Below are positions 26,852 to 36,461 of a stretch of DNA of 36,461 nucleotides, in pieces. Each line of letters starts with the position of its first letter. Positions within the stretch are counted from its first letter, which is position 1. Made by a program: the position numbers and the translations under genes. The DNA is from a virus. The notes under the pieces are model-generated. The model saw only the letters and a program-made list of their open reading frames with translations. It was not told the origin of the DNA and did not search any database. The DNA is taken from positions 1 to 36,461 of IMG/VR virus record IMGVR_UViG_3300031576_000192, one strand, 5' to 3'.

Positions 26852-27036
26852 GAGACGGACTCCTTCTCACTCCCGGAAAACGGCTCACTCACCTCCGACT
26901 CCGCCTCCAGGACCAGAAACCCGGGAGACGGAACATAGTCAACCAACCTCCAGCCCATCCCGGCCCATGCGTTCAAAACCTTCTCATGCTCACCCCAGGT
27001 ATCCGACGCCTTCAACTGGACAAAACGATACTTCAT
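26848..27036 (-). CDS. DUF4177-like small protein
   Basis: ATG 27036 with AGGAG 9 bases upstream gives 62 residues; the longer frame to 27105 overlaps the zinc-ribbon gene and is not used. The pattern MKYRFVQ...W..HEKVLNAWAGMGWRLVDYV matches DUF4177 (PF13783), in which a short strand, a helix L-N-x-x-G-x-x-G-W and a second strand form a small domain of unknown role. The tail is acidic. It is coupled on both sides by ATGA/GTGA overlaps. Confidence 0.65.
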   Translation of the reverse strand: MKYRFVQLKASDTWGEHEKVLNAWAGMGWRLVDYVPSPGFLVLEAESEVSEPFSGSEKESVS

Positions 27037-27248
27037 GACAAACACTCCTCTCGGGGAACCGAAGGTGGAATGGTCTGATAGAACAAAGTCACCAACCCCG
27101 GACATTCAGGACAGATAAGCACCGGCAGTAAATACGGGCCTCCCGGACAACACGGGAAAAGCGCCACGGCATACTCGTACCCACACTGCGGGCACTCCCA
27201 AGAGACGCGAGGCGCATCCCTTCGAATTACTTCGCCGCTTCCGTCCAC
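27033..27248 (-). CDS. Small double zinc-ribbon-like protein
   Basis: GTG 27248 has AAGGAG about 5 bases upstream, giving 71 residues. Three Cys pairs are present: Cys19-x2-Cys22 (WECPQCGYEY), adjacent Cys33-Cys34, and Cys46-x2-Cys49 (LICPECPG), a classic zinc-ribbon arrangement with the middle pair extra. It overlaps the preceding gene by 22 bp and the next by 4 bp. It could be a small transcription or nucleic-acid-binding accessory factor at the head of the late operon; this is inference. Confidence 0.6.
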   Translation of the reverse strand: MDGSGEVIRRDAPRVSWECPQCGYEYAVALFPCCPGGPYLLPVLICPECPGLVTLFYQTIPPSVPREECLS

Positions 27249-27586
27249 GTCTCCTTCCCTTCCGGCGGCCCAACATGCGGAAACGCCTCCTGCAAAGTCT
27301 TCTGAATCTGCTGCGCCACCCTCTCCTCGGCGTCCCGCTCCAGAAGCTCCCCCGTCCTCGCCCCAGCCACCATCTCCGAAGGAAGCCTCGGAGGACCCAC
27401 ATACCCCTCAACCAACGCCCACCACGCCGTCACCAGATCCCGCGGATCCACCCGACAGGCGAAGCCCTCAAATAAAGAAGGCATCGAAGGAAAATCGAAA
27501 GTCAATAAACCATCCGGGAGAAGCGTAACCTCGGCCGAAACCGGATCGCCCTGAACCACAAACAAAACCCGCACACTCCTAACCAC
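27227..27586 (-). CDS. Hypothetical protein near the start of the late operon
   Basis: The start was placed at GTG 27586 because it shares a base with the stop of the previous gene (TAGTG) and GGAGGG lies just upstream; the frame itself extends a few codons to a TTG. The product has about 119 residues. It begins with strands (VRVLFVVQGDPVSAEVTLLPDGLLTFDF), and continues with a RDLVTAWWALVEGYVG helix and a Glu/Gln-rich C-terminus. The DNA is strongly G-skewed on the coding strand. No family recognised. Confidence 0.55.
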   Translation of the reverse strand: MVRSVRVLFVVQGDPVSAEVTLLPDGLLTFDFPSMPSLFEGFACRVDPRDLVTAWWALVEGYVGPPRLPSEMVAGARTGELLERDAEERVAQQIQKTLQEAFPHVGPPEGKETWTEAAK

Positions 27587-27897
27587 TACTCCCTCCAAGC
27601 CCCAGTATCCAACCGCTCCGATCCAATCTCCCGATCATCCACCACCACCCCCTCAAACTTGACCTGCACCGACCTCACCCGCTCCTCCGTATCCTCCAAC
27701 CCCAAATCCCCCTTCCCCACCGCATCCCCCAAAACCTCCGGCAACTTCCGATGATCCTTGAAAGTAGGATCCCTCAACGCCACCCTCCGATTCACCGCAG
27801 CATTTCTCCTCCCCAACTCCTCCAAACTCAACCCACGCCTCCCCCCAACCACCAACCTCCCCTTCACAACCTTCCTCCCCTTCACAACCTTCTTCAT
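27586..27897 (-). CDS. Basic hypothetical protein, first gene of the late operon
   Basis: ATG 27897 gives 103 residues. The N-terminus is very basic with a repeated KVVKGR unit, then GGRRGLSLEELGRRNAAVNRR, a possible DNA-binding helix, followed by an acidic/mixed C-terminal half. The + strand here is almost G-free (27841-27900 has 33 C and 1 G), so the coding strand is a G-rich tract and codon choice is unlike the neighbours. A weak promoter-like pair lies just upstream. No family recognised. Confidence 0.5.
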   Translation of the reverse strand: MKKVVKGRKVVKGRLVVGGRRGLSLEELGRRNAAVNRRVALRDPTFKDHRKLPEVLGDAVGKGDLGLEDTEERVRSVQVKFEGVVVDDREIGSERLDTGAWRE

Positions 27898-27905
27898 GAC
27901 CAAAA

Positions 27906-27934
27906 GAACTAACCCCCCAGAAACACACTGTCAA
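27906..27934 (-). promoter_or_regulatory. Weak promoter candidate for the leftward late operon
   Basis: On the minus strand a perfect -35 (TTGACA, plus-strand 27929-27934) is followed 16-17 bases later by only a poor -10 (TTAGTT or TAGTTC). It lies right before the first late gene. A consensus -35 with a weak -10 would suit a promoter needing an activator. The predicted start would fall almost on the ATG at 27897. Confidence 0.3.
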
Positions 27935-28388
27935 GCCCCCAAACCCCCCAGAACAACCCTCATTCCATTCCAGATAATGTGTAAACCTGGACCACCCCCA
28001 TAACCCCCCACCCCCAAACCCTTTACCACTTTCCCCTTGACAACACACGGAAAAACATGGGACTAAGACAGCCATCCCCCTCCGTATTCCCCCCAGGGAA
28101 TACTCCAGGGGATGCATCCTTCCCTCCCCACTAACTAAATCCAAACAAGGTTTGTAACCGTCCGAGAGCAAGGAATCCTTGTAAGAAGGGTCCGGTGATT
28201 TTTCCCCTCCTGGGTGGCATCGCGGTGGCGATGCCGAAATAATTTCAGGCGGGGGTTGACAGCGAAAAACGGTGGGCGAAACGTGGAGGTGAACGAGGGG
28301 AAAAGGAATACTTGAGTACCTACTCAACTATTCAGGAAAAGGAAAAGCCTACTCTAGAGTACGTGGAGACAAGAGGAGAAGGGGAAGA

Positions 28389-31980: not shown

Positions 31981-32009
31981 AGTATGTCCCGCGAAGCGCC
32001 AACTGTCAA
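31981..32009 (-). promoter_or_regulatory. Sigma70-type promoter for the RadC-MoxR-VWA block
   Basis: On the minus strand: TTGACA (32004-32009), a 17-bp spacer, then CATACT (31981-31986). The predicted start is near 31974, giving a leader of about 64 bases before the RadC-like ATG. There is no TG extension. The 171-bp gap 31911-32081 also holds a T9 run at 32069-32077 with no stem. Confidence 0.65.
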
Positions 32010-32081: not shown

Positions 32082-32420
32082 TTACCGTTCGCTGGCTGCC
32101 AGGTAAAGACATCGTGGTGACCTGCAGGCTCGTTCCGCGCCGGGCATGGCATCTTTCCCCAGGACGGCATCGAAAAGGGCTCCTGCGTCATGGTGGGTCC
32201 ACATGTGGCATACCCTGCTGTTGTTGAGCTCCTCAATCCAGTCTAGGAATCCCTGGAAGCCGGGGGAGGCTATGCTTTCCCGGAGAGCGTAGTGGTAGTA
32301 GCATTTCCCGTTGACGGTAGGGTACACCTTGCACCCGGCGGGGGTGTGTCCCGGGCAGCGGGGGGTCTCCTCCACGATGCCTCCAGGCTTCCTGGGTTCA
32401 CTTGAGCGCTCTTTAGCCAC
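32082..32420 (-). CDS. Cys/His protein following the replication gene, possibly frameshifted
   Basis: GTG 32420, with GGGAGGGC upstream, overlaps the replication gene by 8 bp and gives 112 residues. The middle has CPGHTPAGCKVYPTVNGKCYYH, a Cys/His cluster likely to bind zinc, then LDWIEELNNSR and CHMWTHHDAGALFDAVLGKD. After GKDAMPGA the frame becomes Arg/Cys-rich and stops at 32082. The +1 frame there reads NEPAGHHDVFTWQPANGKSKKK and ends at 32054, which looks more natural. One G too many in the GGCGCGG region would explain this. No family recognised. Confidence 0.55.
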   Translation of the reverse strand: MAKERSSEPRKPGGIVEETPRCPGHTPAGCKVYPTVNGKCYYHYALRESIASPGFQGFLDWIEELNNSRVCHMWTHHDAGALFDAVLGKDAMPGAERACRSPRCLYLAASER

Positions 32421-33267
32421 GGTACTTGCCCTCCCATGTCTTCAAGCAGTTCTCCACGCCATCCTTGCCCTTCTGAAGCAGCCAGTCCAGGTCGGCCGTG
32501 AATCCCTCATGTCCGTTCCCGTTCCTCAATCCGCGGAGGAAGGGTGACTTGGCGATTTCGGCGAAGGTCCGCTCCCACCAGGATTCGTCGGGGAAGCGGG
32601 CGAGGTAGTCCCTGGCCTTCTTACGGCGGCCATCGGATATGGCCTGTACGGCGGGGCACTCGTCAGGGGTGAGCCGGTTGTAGGCGGCCACGAGTCTCTC
32701 CACCGACGGCCAGGGGTAGAGTGCCGGATCAGCTGCCGGATCGAACCCGACAGTTCGGCTAGGGGTCCGCGCCCGAACGCGGACAAGGAGCTCCCTGTCT
32801 TCAGGGAGCTCAATCCTGTTTCCTGCTCCTGCTCCTGCTCCTGGCGGACATACCCTATCTGATACCCTATCCGATAGGGTATACTTAAGTAGTTTCTTTA
32901 CATCAGGATAGGTTTCTACGAACTCTTTAGACAGTGGGGAGTCGGCGAGTGTTTCGACCTGGCGGGCGCAGGAGGTCATGACGCGGGGTCCTTTGCCTTG
33001 ATATCGGAGCATCCGGCGCACGAAAACCACCTCACGCTCCCCGTCCCGGAGTGCCAGCCCGGCCCCTTCCAGCTCCCGCCATGCCGCGGGTAGATTCCGG
33101 GCGGGGATCCTGGTTTCCCGGAGTATGGCGGCGTCGGACAGGTAGTAGAGGCCGGAGAGGTGCGAGTGAGGGGAGGTGATGAGGTAGACGAACAGGTAGC
33201 GCGCCAAGGATGAAAGGGGAGCGACCTTGCCGTCAATCCACAGGGTCGCTTCGATCGTCCGGTACAC
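32413..33267 (-). CDS. Phage replication protein (O-like / replisome organiser)
   Basis: GTG 33267 gives 284 residues; its ribosome site is weak. The N-terminal domain (YRTIEATLWIDGKVAPLSSLARYLFVYLITSPHSHLSGLYYL) is a pattern I know from phage replication proteins with a winged-helix start. The C-terminal part (VAAYNRLTPDECPAV, RRKKARDYLARFPDESWWERTFAEIAKSPFLRGLRNGNGHEGFTADLDWLLQ) is typical of phage DnaD/O-like proteins that recruit the helicase. The hinge contains GAGAGAG and SDRVSDRV, the latter encoded by the 12-bp repeats at 32851-32882. The last residues overlap the next gene. Confidence 0.75.
   Translation of the reverse strand: MYRTIEATLWIDGKVAPLSSLARYLFVYLITSPHSHLSGLYYLSDAAILRETRIPARNLPAAWRELEGAGLALRDGEREVVFVRRMLRYQGKGPRVMTSCARQVETLADSPLSKEFVETYPDVKKLLKYTLSDRVSDRVCPPGAGAGAGNRIELPEDRELLVRVRARTPSRTVGFDPAADPALYPWPSVERLVAAYNRLTPDECPAVQAISDGRRKKARDYLARFPDESWWERTFAEIAKSPFLRGLRNGNGHEGFTADLDWLLQKGKDGVENCLKTWEGKYRG
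32851..32882. repeat. 12-bp iteron-like repeats with a palindromic copy inside the replication gene
   Basis: TACCCTAT occurs at 32851-32858 and again 12 bp on at 32863-32870, followed after CCG by the inverted ATAGGGTA (32874-32881); the last pair forms 9-bp arms. The word contains CCTAT/ATAGG, as do the operators at 34183-34296. The position inside an O-like gene is where lambdoid phages place their origin. Confidence 0.55.
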
Positions 33268-33466: not shown

Positions 33467-33580
33467 TGGGGCGCCCCTCCCGTCTGGGGGGTCGTCTCGA
33501 TGGTAATGGCGGGGGCACCCGGAGACGGTGCGGGAGTTCAGCCGCGGGCGCGAACCACAGCCTAGCCCCCACCCTTTAGC

Positions 33581-33703
33581 TCATCGCAAGTACCAGAAGA
33601 TGTCGAGAATCCCAGGACTGGAGAGCTCGCCGGCAAAGAGCACAGCCATCCAGGTCAATCCGTACACGAGCGCCGATCCGCAATAGAGAGCAGCGGTTTT
33701 CAC
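33581..33703 (-). CDS. Very small membrane protein (40 residues)
   Basis: GTG 33703 has GGAGG about 11 bases upstream; the longer frame to 33811 overlaps the gene above and is Gly/Arg filler. The product is almost all hydrophobic (about residues 3-24: TAALYCGSALVYGLTWMAVLFA) with a short polar tail ending FWYLR, so it is a single-pass membrane peptide. It is one of two adjacent early membrane micro-genes; such genes often target host membrane functions, but nothing specific can be said. Confidence 0.5.
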   Translation of the reverse strand: MKTAALYCGSALVYGLTWMAVLFAGELSSPGILDIFWYLR

Positions 33704-33726
33704 GAGCCCGGTCCTCCCTCCCTTCT

Positions 33727-33837
33727 TTACGGCAGCGACCGGGCGAGCTCGAGGATACCCTGCACGGCCCCCAGGCCCGCCACGGCCACCGCCAGCGAGA
33801 TACCCAGCCACCGTCCTAAAGCGAGAACACGCTTCAT
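33727..33837 (-). CDS. Very small membrane protein (36 residues)
   Basis: ATG 33837 has GGAGG at 9 bases; the longer frame to 33945 would begin before the likely transcription start, so the short form is preferred. A basic start (MKR, GR) leads into one TM helix (about residues 11-31: LGISLAVAVAGLGAVQGILEL). It is the first gene downstream of the promoter at 33949-33976. Function unknown. Confidence 0.55.
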   Translation of the reverse strand: MKRVLALGRWLGISLAVAVAGLGAVQGILELARSLP

Positions 33838-33948
33838 ATTTTGCCTCCAGGGATCGAGGCTAAAACGAGAGGCCGGGCAGCTCCGTTGCTTCCGAGAAAG
33901 TTTAAGGTTGTCCCGGCCCCCCGGTTGGAGGTGTCCCAACATCAAATC

Positions 33949-33976
33949 AGTCTAGCAGGGGATTCTTGGCCGTCAA
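33949..33976 (-). promoter_or_regulatory. Sigma70-type promoter for the leftward early block
   Basis: On the minus strand: TTGACG (33971-33976), a 16-bp spacer, then TAGACT (33949-33954), 14 bp after the end of the RHH gene. The predicted start is near 33942, with a leader of about 105 bases before 33837. Confidence 0.55.
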
Positions 33977-33989
33977 GGGGAGGGTGCCG

Positions 33990-34181
33990 TCACCACACAT
34001 CGGGCACTCCCTCCTTCTCCAGTCGCTCCCGGATCGCCCGCCGGACGAACTCCGAGCGGACCAGCTTTGCCCTGCGACACACACGGATCACGGCGTCTCT
34101 CATCTCCGTGGTGAGCATTATATTCGATAACTCCACCGTGTACGGCCCCTCGGGCGGCCTGCCGATCTTTGGCTTTTCCAT
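33990..34181 (-). CDS. Ribbon-helix-helix transcriptional repressor candidate
   Basis: A 63-residue protein with the RHH layout: a basic arm (KPKIGRPPEG), a strand (YTVELSNIML, about 14-23), helix 1 (TTEMRDAVIRVCRRAK, 24-39) and helix 2 (RSEFVRRAIRERLEKEG, 42-58). The turn before helix 2 carries the usual R/S-E. RHH dimers insert a two-stranded sheet into the DNA major groove. The promoter 34188-34216 predicts transcription starting on the ATG itself, so the mRNA would be leaderless. Twin inverted repeats flank its promoter and the divergent one, implying autoregulation and control of the rightward early operon. Confidence 0.8.
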   Translation of the reverse strand: MEKPKIGRPPEGPYTVELSNIMLTTEMRDAVIRVCRRAKLVRSEFVRRAIRERLEKEGVPDVW

Positions 34182-34182
34182 C

Positions 34183-34202
34183 CCTATATAATAGTGGATA
34201 GG
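34183..34202. promoter_or_regulatory. Operator candidate O1 over the repressor -10 box
   Basis: CCTAT (34183-34187), ten bases, then ATAGG (34198-34202). The ten-base spacer contains the -10 box (34188-34193) of the leftward promoter, so a bound repressor would block it. Same architecture as O2. Confidence 0.6.
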
Positions 34203-34216
34203 ACCTACGCCGTCAA
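34188..34216 (-). promoter_or_regulatory. Sigma70 promoter of the RHH repressor
   Basis: On the minus strand: TTGACG (34211-34216), a 17-bp spacer, then TATTAT (34188-34193). Six bases separate the -10 box from the ATG at 34181, so the transcript should begin at or within a base of the start codon. Confidence 0.8.
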
Positions 34217-34253
34217 CCCCACAACTATTTTGCTCTCCCTGGAAATTAGGGGG

Positions 34254-34282
34254 TTGACAGCCTAATTACTATCCCCTATAAT
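34254..34282 (+). promoter_or_regulatory. Consensus sigma70 promoter of the rightward early operon
   Basis: TTGACA (34254-34259), a 17-bp spacer, then TATAAT (34277-34282): both hexamers match consensus exactly. The predicted start is near 34289, giving a 55-base leader to the ATG at 34344. Operator O2 overlaps the -10 box and the start point. Confidence 0.88.
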
Positions 34283-34296
34283 GTCAGGCATAGGGG
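34273..34296. promoter_or_regulatory. Operator candidate O2 over the rightward promoter
   Basis: CCCCTAT (34273-34279), ten bases, then ATAGGGG (34290-34296): 7-bp perfect arms. It covers the -10 box and start point of the rightward promoter. Spacer length and core match O1. Confidence 0.65.
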
Positions 34297-34343
34297 GCTG
34301 CCGCATGGTACGGTGGCCGAGTGGAATGGGAAGGAGAAGCGAA

Positions 34344-34523
34344 ATGTGTGCCAAGATCAGCGCCTACGTTCTGGACGATGGTGACCTGCACGATTATCTG
34401 ACTGGCGACTATCTCCGGGCCGGCACCGCGGAGGAGAAGATCAGGAGCATAGAGGCTGCCAGGCATGATGGGGGTGCCGGAGTCATCGAGGTGTCCCGGG
34501 AGTCCATCGAAGGAGGAGAGTAG
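34344..34523 (+). CDS. Small acidic early protein
   Basis: ATG 34344 has AAGGAGAA 8 bases upstream and lies downstream of the consensus promoter. The frame extends up to an ATG at 34281, but that lies within the -10 box and cannot be in the transcript. The product has 59 residues, acidic (DDGDLHDYL), with an AEEKIRSIEAARHD helix and a GAGVIEVSRE strand. As the first gene of the rightward early operon it could be an early regulator or host-takeover protein, but I recognise no family. Confidence 0.6.
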   Translation: MCAKISAYVLDDGDLHDYLTGDYLRAGTAEEKIRSIEAARHDGGAGVIEVSRESIEGGE

Positions 34524-34527
34524 CAAA

Positions 34528-35241
34528 ATGCCGCAAGAACAGACTGGCATCGTGATGATCCACGGGCGCGAGTACCAGACAGTCGCGCTCCGCGTGCGAA
34601 AGTTCCGCGAGCAGCACCCGGACTGGTCGCTCACGAGCGAGATCATCCAGCGTGATGATATGATCGTCGTCATGCGATCCTCCATCGCCGACCCGGCGGG
34701 CCGGGTGCTCGCGACCGGGCACGCCGAGGAAGTGCGGTCGGCCTCGCAAATAAACGAAACATCAGCCCTAGAAAACTGCGAGACTTCCGCGCACGGCCGC
34801 GCGCTCGCGGCGCTCGGGTTCGGCGGGTCCGAGTTCGCTTCCGCGGACGAAGTGGCGAACGCTATCCACCAGCAGGCGCAGCCCCCCGCGGTGCCGCGAC
34901 CCGCGCCATCCGGTCCCCCGGCGGTGCCGCGACCCGCGCCATCCGGTAAGCTCGGAGATTTCTTCGTGGATGGCGTGGTCGGGGACTACCAGCCTCCCAA
35001 GGAGGGGAAGAGCGGTAGATACGGTCCCGCCGCCTTCACGGTGGGAGGAATGGTGGTGAAAACCTTTGACGGAAAAGTACGGCAACTGATGGAAGCGGCA
35101 TACAGCGCGCAAGTGCCTGCCAAGGTCTGGTACGAGAAGAAGACATCCCGCTATGGGATGGACCTCTGGATCGTGGACGCGCAGGCGCAGGGAATTCCCG
35201 ATCCCGGCGAGTTTGGGGATGGCGCAAATGAAGAAGCATGA
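34528..35241 (+). CDS. ERF-type single-strand annealing protein candidate
   Basis: ATG 34528 has GGAGGAG upstream and lies 5 bp after the previous stop. The product has 237 residues. The N-terminal half (RVRKFREQHPDWSLTSEII, MIVVMRSSIADPAGRVLATGHAEE, NETSALENCETSAHGRALAALGFGG, FASADEVANAI) matches a phage family that I associate with ERF/Rad52-like annealing proteins; the TSAxGRALAxLG helix is characteristic. Two 11-residue Pro repeats (119-140) link it to a C-terminal domain (GDFFVDGVVGDYQ, AFTVGGMVVKTFDG, AKVWYEKK) that looks OB-fold-like. RusA at the left end would be a natural partner in recombination. Confidence 0.65.
   Translation: MPQEQTGIVMIHGREYQTVALRVRKFREQHPDWSLTSEIIQRDDMIVVMRSSIADPAGRVLATGHAEEVRSASQINETSALENCETSAHGRALAALGFGGSEFASADEVANAIHQQAQPPAVPRPAPSGPPAVPRPAPSGKLGDFFVDGVVGDYQPPKEGKSGRYGPAAFTVGGMVVKTFDGKVRQLMEAAYSAQVPAKVWYEKKTSRYGMDLWIVDAQAQGIPDPGEFGDGANEEA
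34882..34947 (+). repeat. Two tandem 33-bp repeats in the annealing-protein gene
   Basis: Units 34882-34914 and 34915-34947 are nearly identical and encode PPAVPRPAPSG twice, the linker between the two domains. The repeat is in frame, so unit gain or loss would only change the linker length. Confidence 0.9.
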
Positions 35242-36033: not shown

Positions 36034-36461
36034 GCTCTACACCCTGACGGATGAACACCGCGCCCAGCTCCCGGGCTGGGCGCGGAAGTGGATCGCCAAT
36101 GCGATGTCTACGAGTTCGATGGATGCGCACGAGCGCGAGATAGTATCGGGCGCAGTACTCGGGCTGTATGAGGCTGCTGGCCTGCCGCCTCCCAAGCATA
36201 TCGTCTTTGTCCCTAGCCCATTCGTGCTACGCTTTGCTGGGGGATTCGCCGCTGCCATCTGGTATCACCACCACAATACAACGAGCGCCGCCACCGACGC
36301 CGCCGTCGCCGCCACCCGCGCCGCCACCCGCGACGCCACCTACGCCGCCACCCGCGACGCCACCCGCGCCGCCACCCGCGCCGCCACCAGCGCCGCCACC
36401 AGCACCGCCACCAGCGCCGCCACCTACGAAGCCACCTACGAAGCCACCGACGACGCCACCC
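36020..36461 (+). CDS. Phage protein with C-terminal Ala-Thr tetrapeptide repeats (3' partial)
   Basis: ATG 36020 lies inside the 3' end of the previous gene, and the frame runs off the right edge (147 codons visible). The N-terminal 85 residues (LTDEHRAQLPGWARKWIANAMS, LYEAAGLPPPKHIVFVPSPFVLRFAGGFAAAIW) match a conserved phage protein I recall as uncharacterised. From about residue 89 the sequence becomes a regular four-residue repeat [A/D/E]-A-T-x, at least 15 units. Such strict periodicity suggests a right-handed or solenoid-like fold. The full length is unknown. Confidence 0.7.
   Translation, partial: MSRTRLYTLTDEHRAQLPGWARKWIANAMSTSSMDAHEREIVSGAVLGLYEAAGLPPPKHIVFVPSPFVLRFAGGFAAAIWYHHHNTTSAATDAAVAATRAATRDATYAATRDATRAATRAATSAATSTATSAATYEATYEATDDAT
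36284..36461 (+). repeat. 12-bp tandem repeat array encoding AAT-type units
   Basis: About fifteen degenerate copies of a GCCGCCACCCGC-like 12-mer continue to the edge of the window. Copies vary mainly at the fourth codon of each unit. The array is GC-rich and likely hard to assemble, which may explain why the contig ends here. Confidence 0.85.

Follow-up and report, generated by a model that had tools for sequence, protein, structure and literature searches.

The divergent gap and its promoters

The window analyzed here is the whole IMG/VR virus record IMGVR_UViG_3300031576_000192 (36,461 bases), which belongs to an unclassified phage. Its assigned genes run nearly all leftward (a methyltransferase, an endolysin, a P22-like portal, a head protein, a terminase, RadC, an AAA ATPase, and a DnaD-like or O-like replication initiation gene at 32413..33267, minus strand); searches with the portal and DnaD-like genes gave no close relative. 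At the head of this leftward block, upstream of the DnaD-like gene, lies a 63-codon gene (33990..34181, minus strand, ATG at 34181). A divergent gap separates it from a short run of small rightward genes, and the part of the gap that holds divergent promoters and repeated sites covers about 120 bases. An Rfam search of positions 33500-35000 returned no match.

The rightward block opens with a gene for a 59-amino-acid protein (34344..34523, plus strand), which is preceded by the Shine-Dalgarno sequence AAGGAG and has no assigned function. Its one relative, over 34 residues, is in locus L149 and lacks shared synteny; we set this locus aside as a comparison because it has only that short stretch, and not the promoter arrangement, in common with the gene. 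The second rightward gene (34528..35241, plus strand) encodes a probable Mgm101-like DNA-annealing recombination protein (phrog_11717; best phage match annotated "mgM101-like protein"). An in-frame 33-bp duplication within this gene (34882-34947) gives rise to a Pro-rich AVPRPAPSG repeat. Repeats also occupy the end of the record (36285-36461), where tandem units of 12, 24, and 36 bp of the GCGCCGCCACCC type may be the reason that the assembly stopped, and C-rich tandem repeats are found at 27856-28021; positions 27001-28000 have a strong local GC skew (−0.45).

An earlier note, made from the letters of this DNA, described two strong divergent promoters in the gap, and both are present at the positions claimed, with the same sequences and spacers. 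The rightward promoter, TTGACA-17-TATAAT (34254-34282, plus strand; −10 box at 34277-34282), is a full sigma-70 consensus, and the leftward promoter is TTGACG-17-TATTAT (34216 to 34188, minus strand; −10 box at 34188-34193). In a scan of the window they match the consensus at 12/12 and 10/12 positions, respectively, with spacers of 17 bases each; the leftward promoter shares second place with a site at 32009, and nothing apart from the rightward promoter exceeds 10. Outside the hexamers, 16/21 bases are common to the two promoters (0 of 200,000 shuffles), which may therefore be an inverted duplication and share ancestry. Between the 63-codon gene and the next leftward gene there is also a weaker promoter-like site that reads leftward and has an extended −10 (TTGACG-16-TAGACT, 33976-33949); it could drive the leftward genes downstream on its own.

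The A of the ATG at 34181 is the seventh base past the leftward −10 box, and no Shine-Dalgarno-like triplet precedes this ATG; such a triplet, at least in partial form, is present at most other starts checked, among them those of all rightward genes. Because of this spacing and the absent Shine-Dalgarno sequence, we expect a leaderless mRNA whose predicted 5′ end is the AUG itself, in line with the proposal that the geometry of the leftward promoter places its start on this codon.

The 63-residue protein

The earlier note took the product of the 63-codon gene to be a ribbon-helix-helix (RHH) protein. Directly, it matches Pfam RHH_1 at 15.6 bits, below the cut-off of 20.5, and this subthreshold match is the only one to RHH_1 in the record. 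A relative from Anaeromassilibacillus (locus L129) has 39% identity to it over 49 residues that take in the stretch RSEFVRRAI, and passes the RHH_1 cut-off at 30.2 bits. Mainly through this relative, we accept the assignment of the 63-residue protein as a predicted RHH protein. Its predicted model has helices at residues 25-37 and 44-57, at a low pLDDT of 63 and with the strand unresolved in the monomer. Both proteins carry a GRP motif near the N terminus, which favors a start at the ATG (34181) rather than inside the gene; an internal GTG is less likely, since the motif shared with the relative is encoded upstream of it.

A profile of the two sequences retrieved leucine-rich-repeat designs as its top PDB matches and the RHH proteins NikR and ORF56 only at E values of 0.09-0.4, and we did not use these matches. 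Neither the single sequence (E up to 10) nor the two-sequence profile (E up to 1) matched Arc or Mnt among PDB chains, and tblastn with the 63-residue protein gave no phage match; the protein may still be a remote homologue of Arc or Mnt. Viral contigs, phages, and plasmids yielded no close relative of it. In the promoter region of the Anaeromassilibacillus relative (L129:2933-2969), GCTACGAAA occurs twice, 28 bp apart, on either side of a −10-like box, and this pair is possibly the operator of that protein.

Inverted repeats and a 7-bp grid over both promoters

The earlier note also reported twin CCTAT-N10-ATAGG inverted repeats with the same core and spacing. These are present, at 34183..34202 on the left and at 34275-34294 on the right, the latter forming the core of a longer repeat with 7-bp arms (CCCCTAT-N10-ATAGGGG, 34273..34296), and they are the only two copies in the whole record. 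A third, perfect inverted repeat with 7-bp arms (AATTAGG-N10-CCTAATT, 34244..34267) spans the rightward −35 box. A pair of repeats with the same core and the same spacer appeared in 0 of 5000 shuffles in which the promoter hexamers were held fixed. The repeats are thus real features of the gap and are unlikely to have arisen by chance. A CCTA-TAGG repeat of this kind is absent in the loci of annealing-protein relatives (L003-L008).

How the repeats sit on the promoters fits the earlier description only in part. The leftward −10 box (34188-34193) does lie inside the N10 spacer; the rightward one (34277-34282), however, runs into the left arm (34275-34279), whose TAT it shares. The positions of the two repeats relative to their own promoters differ by 7 bp; the repeats are hence not equivalent, and this offset suggests another binding unit.

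Such a unit may be provided by the CTAT/ATAG cores, which within each promoter are all spaced by multiples of 7 bp. The left array (34184..34208) consists of CTAT at 34184, ATAG at 34191 and 34198, and a weaker CTAC at 34205; the right array (34262..34293) consists of a weaker CTAA at 34262, CTAT at 34269 and 34276, and ATAG at 34290, with no core at 34283, so that it is not contiguous. The weaker CTAC and CTAA fall on the same grid. Measured from the −10 box, CTAT stands at −8 and −1 in both promoters, followed by ATAG at +6 on the left or +13 on the right. CTAT-N3-CTAT has two copies in the 36-kb window (0.23 expected), one per promoter, in the direction of transcription and at the same promoter positions.

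With the hexamers fixed, three pairs of any 4-mer spaced by 7 bp were seen in 0/3000 shuffles, and three 4-mer pairs at any period from 5 to 12 in a fraction of 0.0003; this any-motif, any-period statistic weakens to 0.015 with plain dinucleotide shuffles. Among 249 other viral promoters with this consensus, 3 repeat a 4-mer that overlaps the −10 box 7 bp upstream. These figures describe a grid that was noticed post hoc, after inspection of the gap, and three-quarters of the −1 core consists of −10 box bases. Moreover, if the promoters are an inverted duplication, the cores that they have in common are not independent evidence. The extended pattern TTGAC-N10-CTATCC-N-CTAT-N-AT is also found in 19 viral-contig stretches from apparently unrelated phages; we rejected the CTATCC-N-CTAT promoter matches elsewhere as a sign of conservation, as they come mostly from low-GC phages and no RHH gene was seen at the site.

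Known RHH dimers bind short neighboring sites, and on that ground the 7-bp grid is a stronger candidate for the binding unit than are arms with 10 bp between them. RelB binds four 6-bp sites and tolerates no added spacing (PMC2812701), and the half-sites of the RHH protein AmrZ are 5 bp apart. The omega (ParB) repressor of plasmid pSM19035, also an RHH protein, binds WATCACW repeats of 7 bp, which lie over promoters, its own among them, and may have either orientation (PMC9499535). The cores here are CTAT/ATAG and do not follow the WATCACW consensus of omega-type sites.

A candidate early switch

We propose that the 63-residue RHH protein is an autorepressor of an early divergent promoter pair, acting at contiguous 7-bp sites and occluding both −10 boxes, and we give this reading a probability of about one-half. 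Upon infection, both promoters would fire. The rightward promoter would drive a small early operon that includes the DNA-annealing protein gene, and the leftward promoter would drive the RHH gene, with an mRNA beginning at its own AUG. As RHH dimers accumulated, they would bind side by side on the 7-bp CTAT/ATAG sites; the bound sites would run from the promoter spacer over the −10 box to the start site, and the dimers would occlude RNA polymerase at both promoters. Early transcription would thus be turned off and the level of the repressor would limit itself. The promoters, the repeats, the 7-bp grid, the RHH relationship, and the missing Shine-Dalgarno sequence are observed; from this anatomy we infer the binding, its contiguous-dimer mode, the transcript starts, the timing, and the repression.

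The circuit of autoregulation plus control of the rightward genes that the earlier note had outlined is in keeping with the small RHH gene beside sites that overlap both promoters and with the leaderless-type promoter. Its operator unit fares less well. A reading in which each CCTAT-N10-ATAGG repeat is a single operator for the RHH protein, which would thereby repress both promoters, is consistent with the count of just two such repeats in the record, each over a −10 box, with the shuffle result for same-core, same-spacer pairs, and with the third N10 repeat, whose 7-bp arms span the rightward −35 box. However, the two repeats are out of phase by 7 bp relative to their promoters, the 15-17 bp between arm centers is wide for adjacent RHH dimers when set against AmrZ and RelB, and the CTATCC element common to the promoters is left unexplained. 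The half-site spacing and promoter phase thus fit the N10 repeat poorly and the 7-bp repeats better; CCTAT-N10-ATAGG is probably not the RHH binding unit, and we consider this alternative unlikely.

Slightly less likely again, the repeats may be operators of a different regulator of the phage or the host, such as an HTH dimer, with the RHH protein acting elsewhere. HTH dimers commonly use N10-spaced inverted repeats, and several proteins of the window have no assignment; against this, the record contains no HTH_3 match, and its sole RHH gene starts at the repeat itself. Least likely is that the repeats have no operator function and reflect the recent duplication, in inverted orientation, of a single strong promoter, with an unrelated RHH protein: the 16/21 shared non-hexamer bases and the presence of CTATCC-N-CTAT-N-AT in other phage promoters with no RHH gene seen nearby favor it, but duplication alone does not make two inverted repeats that differ in phase, and it leaves the third inverted repeat unexplained as well.

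The proposed autorepressor on 7-bp sites has close parallels in known systems. It would resemble omega in its RHH dimers and in 7-bp sites of either orientation that overlap promoters, site binding being predicted here; omega, by contrast, uses WATCACW in runs of 7-10 and takes part in partition with ParA, whereas here CTAT cores form runs of about 3-5, and a search for AAA_31 (ParA-type) matches was negative. P22 Arc and Mnt, of the immI region, are small RHH repressors of a tailed phage that act at nearby promoters, Arc autogenously (PMC2629481). The predicted RHH repressor likewise belongs to a tailed phage and lies beside the promoters that it would control, but immI controls an antirepressor gene and the neighboring genes here serve recombination and replication. 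The spindle-shaped archaeal virus SSV1 has a CI-like RHH repressor, F55, that acts through tandem ATAG-containing repeats at early promoters and its own (PMC5569661). The candidate sites here are similar ATAG-containing repeats at corresponding promoters; F55 differs in its archaeal promoters, its role in lysogeny, and its tandem ATAGATAG sites. AvtR of AFV6, another RHH protein, covers about 100 nt between two neighboring promoters, one of them its own (PMC5569661). Comparable coverage is predicted here, although AvtR is a tandem RHH monomer of an archaeal virus and can activate as well as repress.

Leaderless repressor mRNAs are known for lambda cI and for PY54 cI and cro, the PY54 ends having been mapped by RACE (PMC4488713). 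A transcript start at the repressor AUG, predicted here from promoter spacing, is the shared feature; the lambda and PY54 proteins are repressors of temperate phages. The analogy with lambda cI drawn in the earlier note accordingly extends to the leaderless-type promoter of the repressor gene and not clearly beyond it. Neither Phage_integrase, Resolvase, nor HTH_3 had a match in the record, which may be a fragment, and the RHH gene is the first of the leftward block, for which reason early shut-off by an autoregulated repressor is a better fit than a role like that of cI.

The suggestion in the note that an RHH switch is less usual in tailed phages is likewise not supported, given P22 Arc and Mnt and, as a CI-like repressor, SSV1 F55. 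Virus RHH repressors (Arc, Mnt, F55, AvtR) and leaderless repressor mRNAs are already known, and the arrangement is of a well-known kind. A fuller combination, in which the main early switch of a tailed phage consists of RHH dimers arrayed side by side, in the manner of omega, on 7-bp CTAT sites that keep one register over two divergent promoters, with a leaderless repressor mRNA, is more tentative, and we hold it at clearly longer odds than the core proposal.

A 63-residue protein, a DNA target of about 120 bp, and promoters near the sigma-70 consensus make the module readily testable. If the proposal is true, a phage without a close known relative would have a compact early-control module that lends itself to testing, and the RHH repressors that act on short contiguous repeats would gain a tailed-phage case.
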